Positions 596 to 8,143 of a DNA stretch of 64,000 nt are shown here, one piece after another (positions within the stretch are counted from its first letter, which is position 1; every line of letters begins with the position of its first letter). The notes under the pieces are model-generated. The model saw only the letters and a list, made by a program, of their open reading frames with translations. It made no database searches and was not told where the DNA came from. The stretch is from a virus. The stretch covers positions 1 to 64,000 of the IMG/VR virus record IMGVR_UViG_3300027747_000967; one strand, given 5' to 3'. Position numbers and translations under genes: made by a program.

Positions 596-1339
596 ATGCC
601 ACAAAGTATATCAGATTTTTATAGTAGTTTTGTAACTGGCTTGGCGAAACCTAGTCGTTTTGAGGTATCTATTACTGCGCCTACTGGATTACCTTCTACA
701 CCTATAAATTTAATGTATAGGTGTGAATCTGCCGAATTACCTAGTAGAACTTATGCTACAACGGAACAAAAATTTGGTTCTAATCCTATTGAAAAATATC
801 CATATCAAGTAACATTTAATGATTTGACGCTTACTTTTATGGTTGGCGGAGACATGAAAGAAAAGGAATTTTTTGATAAATGGATGGAATTAGTTGTTCC
901 TTCATCCAATTATAATCCAAAATACAAATATTCATATGTTGCGACTATAAGAATTACACAATTTGATTCTACAGGCAAACCAACCTATGCTGTAGATTTA
1001 ATAGATGCTTATCCTATTACTGTCAATCAATTAGATTTGGATTGGTCGGCAGAAGGTTATCATAAGTTAAGTGTTGTTTTTGCATACACATATTGGGAAA
1101 AAATAGATAACCCTTTATCTGAAGAAGTTAGAACTAATAAACCGCAACCAAGTGAGAGTGTCCGTACTACATCACAGGGAAATACTTTAGGACCAATGAC
1201 AAATCCTATAGATAATAATACACCAAATCAATCTTCTGGGGTTTCACAGATAGGTACGATTGGTCCAATATCAAATCCTGTAGTTAATAATACACCAGAC
1301 CAATCACCTGGTCCAATTTTTGTACCTTTAATTCGTTAA
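596..1339 (+). CDS. Tail tube family protein (gp19/gp54-like)
   Basis: The protein forms, or caps, the inner tube of the contractile tail. Residues 10-170 match the tail-tube fold pattern: RFEVSI start, RCESAELPSRT, YQVTFNDLTLTFMV, a DAYPITVNQLDLDW strand and a terminal VVFAYTYWE strand. A low-complexity tail follows (about residues 175-247) with two imperfect copies of a G-P-x-x-N-P-x-x-N-N-T-P unit. It sits between a baseplate-region gene and gp26. T4 has two paralogues of this fold, gp19 and gp54; the position away from a sheath gene and beside hub genes makes a gp54-like initiator as likely as the major tube protein. Confidence 0.85.
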   Translation: MPQSISDFYSSFVTGLAKPSRFEVSITAPTGLPSTPINLMYRCESAELPSRTYATTEQKFGSNPIEKYPYQVTFNDLTLTFMVGGDMKEKEFFDKWMELVVPSSNYNPKYKYSYVATIRITQFDSTGKPTYAVDLIDAYPITVNQLDLDWSAEGYHKLSVVFAYTYWEKIDNPLSEEVRTNKPQPSESVRTTSQGNTLGPMTNPIDNNTPNQSSGVSQIGTIGPISNPVVNNTPDQSPGPIFVPLIR

Positions 1340-1359: not shown

Positions 1360-2082
1360 ATGTTGCCCCGTATTGACACACCTGTTTATGAACTAGACTT
1401 ACCTTTATCAAAAAAACATATTCGCTTTAGACCTTTTCTTGTAAAAGAACAACGAAATTTGCTCATGGCGTTAGAATCTGATGATAAAGAAACGATTGAA
1501 AAAAATATTCGTCAAGTTTTACATAATTGCACATTGACAGAAAACATTGATATTGATAAATTGCCTATTATTGATGTTGAATTTTATTTTCTCAATTTAA
1601 GAGCTCGCTCTGTTGGTGAAGTCATTGAAAACAAATACCGTTGTGAAAATGAAGTAGAAGGAAAAAACTGTGGTAATTTAATGGAATCTTCAGTTAATCT
1701 TTTAGAAATTAAAGTTAATATACCAGAAGATATTAAAGATGAAATTCAATTAACACCACAAATTACTATCAAATTAAAATATCCTGAATTTTCTATACTA
1801 CAAAGAGCATCAAAATTTGAAAATGTTACCGATATGGCATTTGATATGATTGTTGAATCGGTAGAGTACATTTATGATGGTCAACAATTTCACTATGCTA
1901 AAGAATCTACACCTGAAGAAATGGTAGAATTTATTGAGTCTCTTAATCAAGAACAATTTAGTAGAATTGAAGCATTCTTTGAAAAAATGCCTACATTAAA
2001 TAAAAAAATAGAAATGGATTGCAAGAAGTGTGGTTTTCACCATATCATTGATGTGGAGGGTCTAGACTCTTTTTTCGTTTAA
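1360..2082 (+). CDS. 26: Baseplate hub assembly protein, gp26-like
   Basis: A 240-residue T4 gp26-family protein needed for building the baseplate hub or tape-measure complex. It begins LPRIDTPVYELDLPLSKKHIRFRPF-like text typical of the family. A four-cysteine cluster (C-E-N-E ... N-C-G-N near residues 99-108 and C-K-K-C-G near 226-230) suggests a zinc-binding site. A purine-rich ribosome site (ATGGAGAT) lies upstream. The 0-frame stop at 2080-2082 comes four codons after a slippery heptamer, and gp51 lies in the -1 frame, so this product is probably also made as a longer frameshifted form. Confidence 0.85.
   Translation: MLPRIDTPVYELDLPLSKKHIRFRPFLVKEQRNLLMALESDDKETIEKNIRQVLHNCTLTENIDIDKLPIIDVEFYFLNLRARSVGEVIENKYRCENEVEGKNCGNLMESSVNLLEIKVNIPEDIKDEIQLTPQITIKLKYPEFSILQRASKFENVTDMAFDMIVESVEYIYDGQQFHYAKESTPEEMVEFIESLNQEQFSRIEAFFEKMPTLNKKIEMDCKKCGFHHIIDVEGLDSFFV
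2070..2076 (+). promoter_or_regulatory. Slippery heptamer T TTT TTC for -1 frameshifting
   Basis: The codons TCT TTT TTC GTT TAA end gp26. T TTT TTC fits the X XXY YYZ slippery rule, and a -1 slip re-pairs both tRNAs with TTT TTT. The new frame then stays open for 63 codons to the TGA at 2265-2267 and encodes gp51-like sequence. No in-frame ATG with a ribosome site exists before the gp51 homology. Confidence 0.75.
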
Positions 2083-2267
2083 CATTTCGTCATGACAATC
2101 TGAAGAATTACTACACGACAAACTTTTCATTGATACAGCATCACAAATATAGTTTGTCAGAACTTGAAAATATGATACCGTGGGAACGTGATATCTACAT
2201 TGCTATGCTTACACAATACATTGAAGAAGAAAATGATAAAATTAAGCAAAGACAAAATAGTAGATGA
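2070..2267 (+). CDS. 51: gp51-like hub assembly protein, made by -1 frameshift from gp26
   Basis: Read in the -1 frame from the slippery site, the sequence gives FFRLTFRHDNLKNYY..., then SLSELENMIPWERDIYIAML and a charged tail of IEEENDKIKQRQ type. The order Y-x-L-S-E-L-E-x-M-x-P-x-E-R-x-x-Y is the gp51 signature I know from T4-like phages; gp51 helps gp26 assemble the hub. The frame has no useful start of its own: the only in-frame ATG (2172-2174) lies inside the conserved part. The gp26-51 fusion would be 302 residues. Its TGA overlaps the ATG of the next gene (ATGA), suggesting translational coupling. Confidence 0.75.
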   Translation, partial: FFRLTFRHDNLKNYYTTNFSLIQHHKYSLSELENMIPWERDIYIAMLTQYIEEENDKIKQRQNSR

Positions 2268-4957
2268 CACAAAAAACACTTGAACAACTCCAAAAAGAAC
2301 TAAAACAACTTGACAAGTTGATTGAAGAAAAACGACCTCTTACAAGAGAAGAGGCCAAAAAGTTTAGAGAAATTGGTTTATTGAAAAGTATCACGCAGAG
2401 TATTGTTGAAGGTAATTCTAAAGGCCGTACCATCTCCAAGGCCACACAAGCAATTACGATGGGTATACAAGAAAAATTTGATCCTTTAAATATTGGCAAA
2501 ATGATTGCTGGTAGTTTAGGTGTTGGCTTAGCCGGTAAATTGACAGGCAGAAGCCAAGAAGATATGGAACATTTTTCGGGTATAACGGGTAAAAGGGGTA
2601 AAAAATCCATAAAAGAATCTACTAACGAACCTAGGAAATTAGGTAAGGTAGATACAAACTTTTATAACACCGTATTAGATAACCAACCAGTAAAGAATGG
2701 TGAGGGAGTTGCAACTGTAGCAGGTAAATTATTAAATCTTTATAAAAAAAATATTGTTGATAAAAAATTGCAGAATGAATTAAATCGTAATTTTGAAGAA
2801 GAAATACAACAAGAAGATACAAGAAAACGTAAAGATTTAATTGTATCAATAGAAAATAGAACTAAAGAATTAAAAAAAATATTCTTTGAGGAAAAACTTG
2901 ATAAAAAAACATTAGATAAAATAAAGAAATTAGAAATAGATAAAAGTGGAGGCAGTTTAATAAAAAAAACTATTTCAACAGCTAAAGATTTGGCCACCGG
3001 TATTTCGCCTAAAATTATTTCACCTAAAACTGGCACTTCTATTATTTCTGGAGCTGCTACTGGAGCTGCTATCACCGGTGGTGCTGTTATTGCTGGTTAC
3101 GGAATTTCTTCATTATTAAAGAAAGGTGAGGCTGCAACATACGACACACAATTTGGTGGAAAACGCAAAACTGGTTTAGAAGAAATGACAATAGATGAAG
3201 TTTTGCAATACCAAAAAACTAAATCTGACTGGAATCAAAAAAGTAGTGCAATTGGTAAATATCAAATAATGCCTAAAACATTAGAAGGTGCAAAAAAAAG
3301 TTTAGGATTAACGGGAAAAGAAAAATTTGATAAAAATACACAAGATAAAATTTATATGGATTATCTTATTGGTGGTAGCAAAAGGCCAAATCTTAATTCT
3401 TATTTAACGGGAAAATCTAATAATATTGAAGAAGCACAAATGGATTTAGCTAAAGAATTCGCTTCAATACCAGTACCACATGATGTGAATAGACCAAAAG
3501 GTGCAGGAGGTCCTACTGATCCAGGAGGCCAAGTTAAAATGGGACAGTCTTATTATGAGGGTCTTGCTGGTAATCATGCAATGAAAGTTTCTAAAGAAGA
3601 AGTTCAAAAACGTATTAACGAACAACGTGATTTAAAGATGGGTAAAGTTTCTCCTGAACAAGTACAACAAATTGCCACGGCAAAAGAACCATCAGCTGTT
3701 AAAGTTTCAAATGAGCCATCAAAAGTACAGTCAAATCAAAAATTAGCTATTGCTGGTGATAGTATTGCTTATGGTGTAGGTAAAACCAAATTGGGTGAAG
3801 AAGCAAAAACGCAAGCAACTGTAGGTCTGTCCACAAAAGAAATTATTTCAGCAGTTAAAACTAAAACAACATCAGACCTTAGTAAAAAAGGTATGGCGGG
3901 CACTAGTAAAAATCAAGGTGATGTAACTAATTCGGATATTGCCGTTATTAGTGCCGGATCAAACGATTGGGGTAATTTAACTAATTTAAAAAATGATTTA
4001 GCTGAATTAAGAAAAGTCACCAACGCAAAGAAATATATTTGGGTATTGCCTGCTAACACAATGCCTGATGGAAAAAATATTGCTGGTGCAAGAAAAATTG
4101 TAGAATCTTTTGCTAATGAGAATAAAGATTCTACAGTTAGTTTTGAACCTGGTAAAGACCAAATACATCCAAAAAGTCCTGAAAAATTACAACAAGATAT
4201 TAGAAGTAAAATAAAAGAGTTGCAAGGTGAAACCACAAATAAAGAAAACAAAGTTATTGAAACAAAAAATATGAACACATCTACAGACTTTGTTATGTTT
4301 AGAGGAAAAGACCCTCAGACAGGCACAAGCAAAGGTGTTGATTCTTCCGCAAGTTCATTGACAGAGGCAGGTTTTAAAGCACAAGCATTTAATTCTTTTT
4401 CGGCACCATCATCATTAGCAAAAGATGGTTCACCGTTATATGGTTTTAGTTTAGGTGGTATGTCAGTTTTAGATTATGCAAATAAAAACAAAAATGTTAA
4501 ATTTTCAACGGCATATCTTGTAGACCCATATGGTGATTCATTAAAGATGTTATTAGATAATCCTCCAAAAAATGTTGATAAATTTATCGTTTGGTATAAT
4601 CCAAATCATGAATATTTAAAAAAATATGGTGTATTATCAAGAATGAAATCTCAAGATAATATTCAATTTATACCTATATCTGGTGTATCTCATGCTGAAA
4701 TGCCACAAAAAGTATTGCCTACTATTCTTTCAGATTTACAAAAAAATAAATCAAGTCAAGTTGCTTCTACTAATAATATGGGTGGCGAGCTAAATAGTAG
4801 AACAAAAGAAAATCAAAACTTAAAAGAAGGTATGAAACCTGTTTCTTATATTGATAATTCTTCAAAAACAAAAGAAATTGGAAAAAAATCATCACCTAAA
4901 ATACTAGCTGCGGCAGATAAACTAGATTACCCTATACACATAAAAGTTCAATCATAA
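2264..4957 (+). CDS. Large tail protein with three hydrolase-like domains
   Basis: The 897-residue protein sits at the tape-measure/hub position directly after gp51. Residues 1-225 share a domain with the next gene (DPLNI...KLTGRSQEDM, then ELNRNF). A hydrophobic Gly/Ala segment lies at about 262-285. Residues about 290-445 look like a lytic transglycosylase/lysozyme (SAIGKYQIMP, then a long polar region). Residues about 490-650 form an SGNH/GDSL-type esterase: GDS at ~497, GSND at ~564, D-x-x-H at ~632. Residues about 670-830 look like an alpha/beta hydrolase, with a GFSLGG elbow at ~727, VDPYGD acid and SHAEMP histidine at ~808. Inference: a virion enzyme digesting peptidoglycan and acyl/ester groups at entry. 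Confidence 0.7.
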   Translation: MTQKTLEQLQKELKQLDKLIEEKRPLTREEAKKFREIGLLKSITQSIVEGNSKGRTISKATQAITMGIQEKFDPLNIGKMIAGSLGVGLAGKLTGRSQEDMEHFSGITGKRGKKSIKESTNEPRKLGKVDTNFYNTVLDNQPVKNGEGVATVAGKLLNLYKKNIVDKKLQNELNRNFEEEIQQEDTRKRKDLIVSIENRTKELKKIFFEEKLDKKTLDKIKKLEIDKSGGSLIKKTISTAKDLATGISPKIISPKTGTSIISGAATGAAITGGAVIAGYGISSLLKKGEAATYDTQFGGKRKTGLEEMTIDEVLQYQKTKSDWNQKSSAIGKYQIMPKTLEGAKKSLGLTGKEKFDKNTQDKIYMDYLIGGSKRPNLNSYLTGKSNNIEEAQMDLAKEFASIPVPHDVNRPKGAGGPTDPGGQVKMGQSYYEGLAGNHAMKVSKEEVQKRINEQRDLKMGKVSPEQVQQIATAKEPSAVKVSNEPSKVQSNQKLAIAGDSIAYGVGKTKLGEEAKTQATVGLSTKEIISAVKTKTTSDLSKKGMAGTSKNQGDVTNSDIAVISAGSNDWGNLTNLKNDLAELRKVTNAKKYIWVLPANTMPDGKNIAGARKIVESFANENKDSTVSFEPGKDQIHPKSPEKLQQDIRSKIKELQGETTNKENKVIETKNMNTSTDFVMFRGKDPQTGTSKGVDSSASSLTEAGFKAQAFNSFSAPSSLAKDGSPLYGFSLGGMSVLDYANKNKNVKFSTAYLVDPYGDSLKMLLDNPPKNVDKFIVWYNPNHEYLKKYGVLSRMKSQDNIQFIPISGVSHAEMPQKVLPTILSDLQKNKSSQVASTNNMGGELNSRTKENQNLKEGMKPVSYIDNSSKTKEIGKKSSPKILAAADKLDYPIHIKVQS

Positions 4958-4960
4958 AAA

Positions 4961-7198
4961 ATGAAAATAATAACAAAAAAATTAGGAAATCAAGAATTTA
5001 TATGGGACGCTACCGCTTATAAAAATAAGGGTTATTGGTATATTCTAGGTAAAAAAGGTGCATACGGAAGACCAGCAAGTAGAAAAGAATTTTCCCAATT
5101 AGGAAAACCAAACGAAAAAGAAACCATACCAGTTTCACCGGAAGTTTATGAAGAACCTGAAATTTATGATGAACCTGAAGAATCTACAAATGTCGGTATG
5201 TCGTACCAACGTGCTGCAAATATAAGAGATAAAGGATTAAGAAATCTTATCGCAGGTAAAATTATTGCGGGTGGAGATATTGGTGAATCTATTAAAGACG
5301 GCATCTCAGAAGGTGTTAAAGCAAAATTAACAGGGCTTAAAGAGAGATTAGACCCCTTAAATATTGCTCGCAAGTTAACCGGCAATTTAGGTGCAGCTCT
5401 TTTTGGTAAAATAACAGGCAGAAGTCAAGAAGATATGCAATATTTTACCGGTTATGGTAAAAAGAATGGTGCTACTGCTACGCAAGTACCAGAAAAAAAT
5501 ACATTGAGTAAAATTGAAGAAGCCACAACTACCAAAGTATCTGGTGGCCAATCAAATGCGAATTTACGAGTAAAAGATAGTGTATCTGATGTTCTTGCTA
5601 AATTATATAACTTACTTAAAAAAAGTTTTGATGATGAAAAATTAAATTCAGAATTAAATAGAAATTTTAAAGCCGAAATTGAAAAAGAAAAAAATAAATT
5701 AAATGATAAGTTATTTACTGCAATTGAAAAACAATCCGACCTAATCAAATACTGTTTACCAATTTCAACATTTAATCAATTTACAAAAGATTTACATAAA
5801 AAATTAAAAGATATCAAAACTAATGTTGAAGATAAAGATAATGATGGTTTACTAAAACAATTAGAAACAATATTAGGAGCAGGATTATTTTCAAGAATGT
5901 TTGGAGCAGTTCTTCCTTCTTTTATACCATTGATGAGCTCATTGCTCTTAGCAGGTGGAGTAGGAGTAGCAATTTATGCTGCCACAAGAGGACTAGAATA
6001 TTTAAACAAAATAACACCAGATTATAAACAAATTTCTCCTAAGGAAGCAGAAGCTGCTTTAAGTGGTAGCCAACACGATATTGATTCTTATGCTGAAAGA
6101 GATAAGACAGGTAAAATAACTAAATCAGGTAAAGATGTTTTAAAAGATGTTATAAAAAATAAGCCAAAAGAAGCGCAAGCACTTGAAGAAAAAAGAAAAC
6201 AAATTGATGCAATGCCTGCAGGTACCGAAGAAGAAAAAAAGGCAAAAGATAAAGAAATCGAATCCCACAAAGATTCTGTTAGAAAGTTTGGTGGTGAGAA
6301 ATTACTAAAAGAAGTCCTTAACGATAAAACAATACGCAAAGCACCAGAACCAGAAAATATTGATAAAGGTCCTGAAAAAGTTCCACCACGTCCCGTTACA
6401 GGAGGCTCAGCGTTAGAATCCAAGCAAAAAAAATGGGACATAGATTATGGTGATAGACATGACCCTAAAACTGGAATTAGAAAAGATTTATTACCAAAGA
6501 CAAAAGAAAACACCGAAGAAAATTCTAATGCAATTTCCACATCAAGTGTTATTAAAGAGATTAAAGATAGTTCTACAGAAATAAAATCTAGTAGTAATGT
6601 TAATACCAATAATGTTAATAATAATAGTGCTACATCATTAGCAAGTAATATTAATAATAGTAATGTTAATAATAATAGTGCTACATCATTAGCAAGTAAT
6701 ATTAATAATAGTAATGTTAATAATAATAGTGCTACATCATTAGCAAGTAATATTAATAATAGTAATGTTAATAACAATACCAATAGTGCTACATCATTAG
6801 CAAGTAATATTAATAATAGTAATGTTAATAACAATACCAATAGTGCTACATCATTAGCAAGTAATATTAATAATAGTAATGTTAAAGATAAAGGTAGTAA
6901 AAGTAGTGCTAGTGGTGTTCAATCTGCTCAGAATATTATTAGTCAAGAAATACAAACAGCATCATTGCAACCAAGTAATAATTCTTTGTCTACAAAAATG
7001 CAAAATGTAAATAGTCAATATATTGATAATAGGTTAACGCAAGAAGGATTAACTTCTACAATTATAGCGGACAATTCAAAGCAAACAACTATTATCAATC
7101 AAAACTCAGATGGTTTAATGGTAGAAGAATTGGTTGCTGTGAGAGAATATGAACCAACATTTGAAAAAGTTAATAGACAATATTTAAGAATGGTATAA
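4961..7198 (+). CDS. Large tail protein, paralogous N-terminal domain, Asn-rich repeats
   Basis: The 745-residue protein follows the previous one after 3 bases. Residues about 100-240 repeat its shared domain (LDPLNI...KITGRSQEDMQYF, then SELNRNF). A hydrophobic, probably membrane-spanning helix lies at about 317-345 (LMSSLLLAGGVGVAIYAATRG). A highly charged stretch (350-480) is followed by five tandem Asn/Ser-rich repeats (about 551-639) and a 100-residue C-terminus. Tape-measure or hub proteins often have such helical, repetitive and TM-like parts, but neither gene of the pair can be assigned to a T4 gene by sequence alone. Confidence 0.7.
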   Translation: MKIITKKLGNQEFIWDATAYKNKGYWYILGKKGAYGRPASRKEFSQLGKPNEKETIPVSPEVYEEPEIYDEPEESTNVGMSYQRAANIRDKGLRNLIAGKIIAGGDIGESIKDGISEGVKAKLTGLKERLDPLNIARKLTGNLGAALFGKITGRSQEDMQYFTGYGKKNGATATQVPEKNTLSKIEEATTTKVSGGQSNANLRVKDSVSDVLAKLYNLLKKSFDDEKLNSELNRNFKAEIEKEKNKLNDKLFTAIEKQSDLIKYCLPISTFNQFTKDLHKKLKDIKTNVEDKDNDGLLKQLETILGAGLFSRMFGAVLPSFIPLMSSLLLAGGVGVAIYAATRGLEYLNKITPDYKQISPKEAEAALSGSQHDIDSYAERDKTGKITKSGKDVLKDVIKNKPKEAQALEEKRKQIDAMPAGTEEEKKAKDKEIESHKDSVRKFGGEKLLKEVLNDKTIRKAPEPENIDKGPEKVPPRPVTGGSALESKQKKWDIDYGDRHDPKTGIRKDLLPKTKENTEENSNAISTSSVIKEIKDSSTEIKSSSNVNTNNVNNNSATSLASNINNSNVNNNSATSLASNINNSNVNNNSATSLASNINNSNVNNNTNSATSLASNINNSNVNNNTNSATSLASNINNSNVKDKGSKSSASGVQSAQNIISQEIQTASLQPSNNSLSTKMQNVNSQYIDNRLTQEGLTSTIIADNSKQTTIINQNSDGLMVEELVAVREYEPTFEKVNRQYLRMV
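6611..6877 (+). repeat. In-frame tandem repeat, 3 x 51 bp then 2 x 57 bp
   Basis: Units begin at 6611, 6662, 6713 (51 bp), 6764 and 6821 (57 bp). The 57-bp units add two codons (Asn-Thr). Copies are almost identical at the DNA level, so the array is recent and could change copy number while keeping frame. The peptide unit is N-V-N-N-N-S-A-T-S-L-A-S-N-I-N-N-S. Confidence 0.95.
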
Positions 7199-7239
7199 AA
7201 AACCCGCCAAAGTGTGCATCGTTGAGAGGCATGGCGGGT
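7197..7239 (-). terminator. Intrinsic terminator between convergent blocks
   Basis: ACCCGCCA (7202-7209) pairs perfectly with TGGCGGGT (7232-7239). Read leftward, the stem is followed by a run of U (AAAAAA on the plus strand at 7197-7202), so it terminates the gp32-side transcript. Rightward there is no U-run, so it is one-sided although it could slow both. Confidence 0.8.
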
Positions 7240-7252
7240 GTGTCAAAACTAT

Positions 7253-8143
7253 TTAGTCGGATTCTGCTAACCGTGCAAAATATGCTAAGTCATCATCTTC
7301 AACATCAGTATCAAAAGGAACTTCTTCTTTAACAACCTTAGGTGCTTTCTTTACTTCTTCTTTGATTTGCTCTACAGTAGTCTTAGGTGTAGGTACTTCA
7401 CCATTTAAACCTAATACTTTGTCAAGACGAGCTTTCAATACATCATAAGACTTAAACTCTTTATCACCAACCATCTCGGTTAAAGAATACTCTTTCTTAT
7501 AGATTGCTTCTAACTTATCGTCAGCAGCCAAAGGAGATGGAGAATCAAATTCTGACTTATCATAATTCTGATAACCTTCTACTTTACGAATCTTTAACTT
7601 GAAGTTAGCGCCTTTCCATAAATCAAATGGATTGATTGCTGTTTCATCTTCAAATGCTGGATTCATTGCTTCTGTAATCTTATCAAAGATTTTCTTGCCG
7701 AACTTATACAGAAATACTTTGCCTTCATTTTCAGGATTCTTAGGGTCAGCAACCACATAAATGTTAGCGATGTAATTTAACTTACGTTTTTGTTTACGGA
7801 CGATTTCTTTGTTTGCTTCAATACCTGAATTCCATAATGTAGAATTATGCTCACAAACAGGACAAGTTTGATTCTTTGTAGTTAAACAATTATCAATTAA
7901 CCAACCGCCAGTTCCTTGAAATCCATGTGAGAATACTTTTACCCATGGAAGACCATCATCACCATCAACTGATGGTGCTGGTAGAAAACGAATGACTGCT
8001 TGGCCATTGCCTGATTTGTCGGTCTCGCATTTCCAAAAATTATCGGATTTGTCTGAACCTTCTGATGTTGTGTTGAGTGCCTCAATTGCTTTTGTTAGCT
8101 TATCAAGGTTGCCGGATTGGCGTTTTAGATTTTCAAAACTCAT
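7253..8143 (-). CDS. 32: Single-stranded DNA-binding protein gp32
   Basis: The 296-residue protein coats ssDNA during replication, recombination and repair. A basic N-terminal LAST-like region (FENLKRQS) precedes the DNA-binding core. The zinc site is H73, C86, C94, C97, matching the H-C-C-C set of T4 gp32. The C-terminus from about 255 is acidic (DTDVEDDDLAYF...), the part that in T4 contacts gp59, gp43 and others. It is the last gene of its leftward transcript, ahead of a terminator. A ribosome site AAGGAGC precedes ATG and its own sigma-70-type promoter lies about 60 bp upstream. Confidence 0.95.
   Translation of the reverse strand: MSFENLKRQSGNLDKLTKAIEALNTTSEGSDKSDNFWKCETDKSGNGQAVIRFLPAPSVDGDDGLPWVKVFSHGFQGTGGWLIDNCLTTKNQTCPVCEHNSTLWNSGIEANKEIVRKQKRKLNYIANIYVVADPKNPENEGKVFLYKFGKKIFDKITEAMNPAFEDETAINPFDLWKGANFKLKIRKVEGYQNYDKSEFDSPSPLAADDKLEAIYKKEYSLTEMVGDKEFKSYDVLKARLDKVLGLNGEVPTPKTTVEQIKEEVKKAPKVVKEEVPFDTDVEDDDLAYFARLAESD

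Follow-up and report, generated by a model that had tools for sequence, protein, structure and literature searches.

How is a gp51-like protein made when its reading frame lies in the -1 frame at the end of gene 26 and has no usable start codon of its own? The question arises from a tail gene locus in the window analysed here, a 64,000-nucleotide stretch read on one strand (positions 1 to 64,000 of IMG/VR virus record IMGVR_UViG_3300027747_000967). Judged from its sequence, the uncultured T4-like phage represented by this record almost certainly produces one tail-building helper protein in two lengths, short and long, through a -1 slip of the ribosome. The features of the locus are collected in Table 1.

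Table 1. Features of the gp26/gp51 locus and its direct neighbours, with positions in the window.
Feature	Position	Strand	Basis
Tail-tube-like gene (context, directly upstream)	596..1339	+	phrog_45 tail tube, E 4.7e-38
gp26, putative short chaperone form (TAC-N), 240 aa	1360..2082	+	PF12322, E 7.2e-58; phrog_150, E 1.6e-60
GGAGG, Shine-Dalgarno-like, likely frameshift stimulator	2055..2059	+	ends 10 nt 5' of the heptamer; enriched among relatives
Slippery heptamer T TTT TTC in the gp26 zero frame	2070..2076	+	letters, phase, conservation
gp51 domain (putative TAC-C), -1 frame, as read after the shift	2076..2267	+	phrog_634, E 1.1e-28
TAA, gp26 stop, ends the unshifted product	2080..2082	+	reading of the frame
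ATGA, gp51 stop overlapping the start of the next ORF	2264..2267	+	TGA 2265-2267, ATG 2264-2266
897-aa tail ORF in a putative tape-measure position (context, directly downstream)	2264..4957	+	ORF list; paralogous region

Both parts of the locus match families annotated as baseplate hub proteins. The PF12322 match of gp26 scores 196 bits against a curated cut-off of 24.5 and is the only copy of this domain in the record, which is possibly incomplete. phrog_150 carries the annotation baseplate hub and phrog_634, matched by the -1 piece, that of baseplate hub assembly catalyst. In the profile search the -1 piece also matches the C-terminal end of phrog_150, which indicates that PHROG 150 already includes full-length proteins of the fused type. 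The AlphaFold model of gp26 has a pLDDT of 87. Solved structures related by sequence were not found, and a fold search of the PDB returned no significant match; the HK97 tail assembly chaperone 2ob9 is among the top, non-significant matches (E 2.0, prob 0.12).

The end of gene 26 carries a slippery heptamer in the phase needed for a -1 shift. The final zero-frame codons are GTG GAG GGT CTA GAC TCT TTT TTC GTT TAA, so that T TTT TTC stands in the correct X XXY YYZ phase and a single sense codon separates it from the stop. As a bare string, TTTTTTC is frequent in the AT-rich window (65 seen, 56 expected), and an in-phase TTTTTTY occurs once in the 13,710 codon positions of window ORFs of at least 150 aa, namely at this site. 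From 2052 onward no stop interrupts the -1 frame before its TGA, and a shift at the heptamer would yield a fusion, gp26-51, of 302 predicted residues. No ATG, GTG or TTG precedes position 2130 in the gp51 frame; the TTG found there, the first candidate, lies about 18 codons inside the conserved gp51 domain, which itself begins at the two Phe codons of the heptamer. A preliminary description of the locus had named the heptamer, the gp51-like -1 frame lacking a usable start, the overlap of its TGA with the next ATG and the 302-residue length of the fusion. All of these are borne out by the present reading, with one correction: the heptamer had been placed four codons before the gp26 stop, and its TTT lies three codons before it.

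The heptamer and the gp51 frame are conserved among relatives, whose alignment the preliminary description had proposed as a check. We collected 162 sequences, comprising IMG/VR relatives, the window and a second copy of the window, of which 158 were usable in that both ORFs could be read; of the remaining four, three were missing one of the two ORFs and one had a broken reading at a contig end. In all 158 usable sequences gp51 lies in the -1 frame and a T6 heptamer stands one or two codons before the gp26 stop. An in-phase heptamer is also present in 13 named phages: P-SSM2, S-PM2, S-WAM1, S-N03, HTVC008M, Melnitz-3, pf16, phiM12, Desulfovibrio phage 7757, Vibrio D480, VH1_2019 (KVP40-type), PX29 and RL38J1. 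Twelve of these show T6 followed by C or T and are drawn from the Kyanoviridae, the Straboviridae (KVP40-type, Angelvirus), Emdodecavirus, Chakrabartyvirus and an unclassified Desulfovibrio phage, while Rhizobium phage RL38J1 (Pootjesviridae) has T TTT TTG. Across the usable sequences and the named phages together, the base after T6 is C, T, A or G. More broadly, a gp51 match is present in 624 phage records.

We next consider how far coding need could account for this conservation. Removal of near copies (identity above 85% at the gene end) left 91 junctions, each of which has the T6 heptamer at its Phe-Phe codons, against 35.3 expected (variance 19) from each gene's own synonymous codon use; the relatives share ancestry and are not independent samples, so a z-score on this count would overstate independence. 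The direction of the excess is beyond doubt, and by this measure the heptamer is conserved beyond coding need. In 41 of the 91 junctions the gp51 frame has no start codon as far as 36 nt beyond the gp26 stop, and elsewhere among them gp51 starts occur at differing positions. KVP40-type phages have a TAATG at the gp26 stop besides the heptamer, and extra gp51 might be produced there by reinitiation. Relatives with intact separate gp51 starts and ribosome sites, which the preliminary description had held to speak against a frameshift, are thus partly matched in form by these phages, which retain the heptamer.

A Shine-Dalgarno-like sequence upstream of the heptamer likely stimulates frameshifting. 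GGAGG is present in 44 of the 91 dereplicated junctions, compared with 3.4 expected from synonymous codon choice, and is absent from about half of the relatives. At the same site the Glu codon is GAG in 53 of 80 cases (17.4 expected); the remaining Glu codons of gp26 in the window are 27 GAA and 2 GAG. The effect on Shine-Dalgarno duplex energy is small (-0.56 kcal/mol), in a scored interval that omitted the upstream G, and the motif test over the full interval gives a clear enrichment. Downstream of the heptamer, RNA structure in the window is not significant (z -0.95). Taken together, the relatives form slightly more stable folds than shuffled sequences over bases 6-80 past the heptamer (mean z -1.3), and an Rfam search at the junction found no family. 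In E. coli dnaX the spacing between the Shine-Dalgarno sequence and the heptamer is about 10 nt, as at the present site. The dnaX heptamer is A AAA AAG and is combined with a 3' stem-loop, whereas the site described here has U UUU UUC, and the window offers no clear stem. The two sites are alike in carrying a Shine-Dalgarno-like sequence 5' of the slippery heptamer, which in dnaX is an established stimulator of the -1 shift (PMC5009743).

These observations suggest the following mechanism. Ribosomes would pause near the end of gene 26, aided by the internal GGAGG, and a minority would slip back by one base on U UUU UUC, with both Phe codons re-pairing as UUU. The majority would halt at the TAA and release gp26, and the rest would read on to produce gp26-51. 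The slippage itself, its rate and the action of the stimulator are what we infer from the sequence features. Together the products would constitute a short form and a C-terminally extended form of the same domain, that is, a tail assembly chaperone pair (TAC-N and TAC-NC) comparable to gpG and gpGT of lambda; architecture, gene position and published work all point to this chaperone role. The lambda heptamer differs from T TTT TTC, and the tail here is of the contractile T4 type, unlike that of lambda. In lambda, ribosomes slip by -1 shortly before the short ORF ends, which gives rise to a minority long form (PMC5009743). As in the present pair, the C-terminal domain is without a start of its own and the gene follows that of the tail tube. 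The in-phase heptamer, the conserved -1 frame, the missing gp51 start, the Shine-Dalgarno-like enrichment and the position among tail genes together make a -1 frameshift the best reading. The whole account, in which gp26 and gp26-51 arise by frameshifting and act as a tail assembly chaperone pair as the preliminary description had put forward, is very probably correct.

The two long ORFs that follow the locus were also examined. ORFs 2264-4957 and 4961-7198 are adjacent and share a paralogous N-terminal region (36% over 207 aa, E 2e-27); the former has a weak GDSL hydrolase match and the latter contains NNSATSLASNINNSNV repeats. Tape measures are annotated directly downstream of the corresponding genes in HTVC008M and phiM12. 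The 745-aa ORF 4961-7198 has no significant similarity to the HTVC008M tape measure, and the 897-aa ORF has none to the P-SSM2 neighbour and no tape-measure match in the profile search. Further downstream, an abiF RNA (Rfam RF03085, 50.1 bits, cut-off 37) is found on the minus strand at 7202-7238, directly downstream of a ssDNA-binding-like ORF at 7253-8143 (minus strand). It consists of a GC stem closing the loop GCCTCTCAACGATGCACAC and a subsequent T run and thus resembles a terminator. Its 19-mer occurs in 77 IMG/VR contigs with variable stems, 55 of them with the T run, and in 12 of the 77 a relative of ORF 7253-8143 lies just upstream.

Independent production of gp51, by reinitiation past the gp26 stop or from a non-AUG start there, with GGAGG serving as its ribosome site, is suggested by the TAATG of KVP40-type phages, where the ATG overlaps the gp26 stop, and by the separate gp51 genes annotated in databases. 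We consider it very unlikely, since the first in-frame start candidate of the window falls within the conserved domain, start positions vary among relatives, the domain begins at the heptamer's Phe codons and the conservation of the heptamer would be left unexplained. The T run could also invite slippage of RNA polymerase, yielding mRNAs in the other frame. However, the run is exactly six T followed by C in 83 of the 91 dereplicated junctions, which falls short of the nine-base runs cited for transcriptional slippage in bacteria (PMC5009743); it keeps the phase for tRNA re-pairing, and a Shine-Dalgarno-like element works on ribosomes rather than on polymerase, making this origin of the second frame highly improbable. 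As the window derives from one metagenomic record, we also considered a sequencing or assembly error that split a single in-frame fusion gene, an explanation refuted by the usable relatives and the 13 named isolates, every one of which is split at this very codon.

A different objection accepts the frameshift and confines its products to baseplate hub assembly, with no part as tape-measure chaperones. T4 gp26 and gp51 have been called hub assembly chaperones; the completed particle does not contain gp51, and gp26 has been assigned to the hub in some studies (PMC3004832). Against this, the short/long architecture and the frameshift fit tail assembly chaperones, an assignment that has been published, and a role restricted to the hub appears unlikely. 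Moreover, with the tape measure gp29 being part of the T4 hub, the hub and chaperone roles may be one and the same.

Comparison with T4 indicates that its genes 26 and 51 are homologous to the present pair and encode a short and a long form separately. In T4 gp51, residues 1-201 match PF12322 (E 3.9e-52) and the gp51 domain comes after them, a make-up shared by Acj9 gp51, while T4 gp26 is paralogous to it and has the PF12322 domain without the gp51 tail. Residues 15-244 of T4 gp51 align to residues 22-284 of the 302-residue fusion (E 1e-9). On this alignment T4 gp51 is a homolog of the whole fusion, not of the -1 piece alone. The preliminary description was right in giving T4 two separate genes, a statement that the PF12322 domain in T4 gp51 refines. 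As T4 gp51 combines a gp26-like domain with the gp51 tail, T4 gp26 and gp51 represent a short/long pair made from two genes. These genes are separate and in opposite orientation, and in T4, Acj9, Aeromonas phage 25 and PspYZU05 gene 26 ends without a slippery T6 heptamer in phase. With T4 gp26 lacking both tail and heptamer and T4 gp51 being full length, short and long forms both persist where the frameshift is absent. An unrooted tree of the divergent PF12322 sequences resolves three groups, the frameshift genes, T4-type gp26 and T4-type gp51, and would fit a single duplication within the T4-type branch, whose direction it does not prove. Frameshifting is found in several families, other Straboviridae included, which suggests that the two-gene state is likely derived.

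Vladimirov, Gautam and Davidson (Virology 2022, 566:9-15) reportedly identified 26/51-family genes as the tail assembly chaperones of T4-like phages, and their abstract is said to describe frameshifting as seemingly conserved in several T4-like groups, with T4 using genes 26 and 51. Passages in two later articles cite that work, one for T4-like phages with one short and one longer fusion gene instead of frameshifting (PMC10885494) and one for poly-T -1 signals in T4-like TAC-N genes (PMC12846349). The preliminary description had proposed that T4 hub proteins be linked to the general chaperone scheme; the link stands, and according to these passages it had already been made in 2022. As far as they convey it, the arrangement is thus already published for T4-like phages, with the same 26/51-family genes and the same short/long logic, and the present phage adds another example, differing from the phages of that study in being a new member from an uncultured clade. 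The Shine-Dalgarno-like stimulator and the breadth of conservation are possibly new details. Combining them, we put forward, as a proposal whose chances we judge to be even, that this T4-like clade and many cyanophages fix their short:long ratio by means of the Shine-Dalgarno-like element in the last codons of gp26 acting with U UUU UUC, without strong 3' structure, and that duplication replaced this decoding signal in T4-type phages.

In the named-phage records that we inspected, gp51 is either annotated as a gene of its own, whose start varies, or omitted (S-WAM1), and none uses a joined CDS, so the predicted fusion product is missing from those annotations. The wide sampling and the uncultured clade confirm the place of the T4 hub proteins gp26 and gp51 within the general short/long tail-chaperone scheme, and the dnaX-like 5' element offers a simple handle on how the short:long ratio is set.
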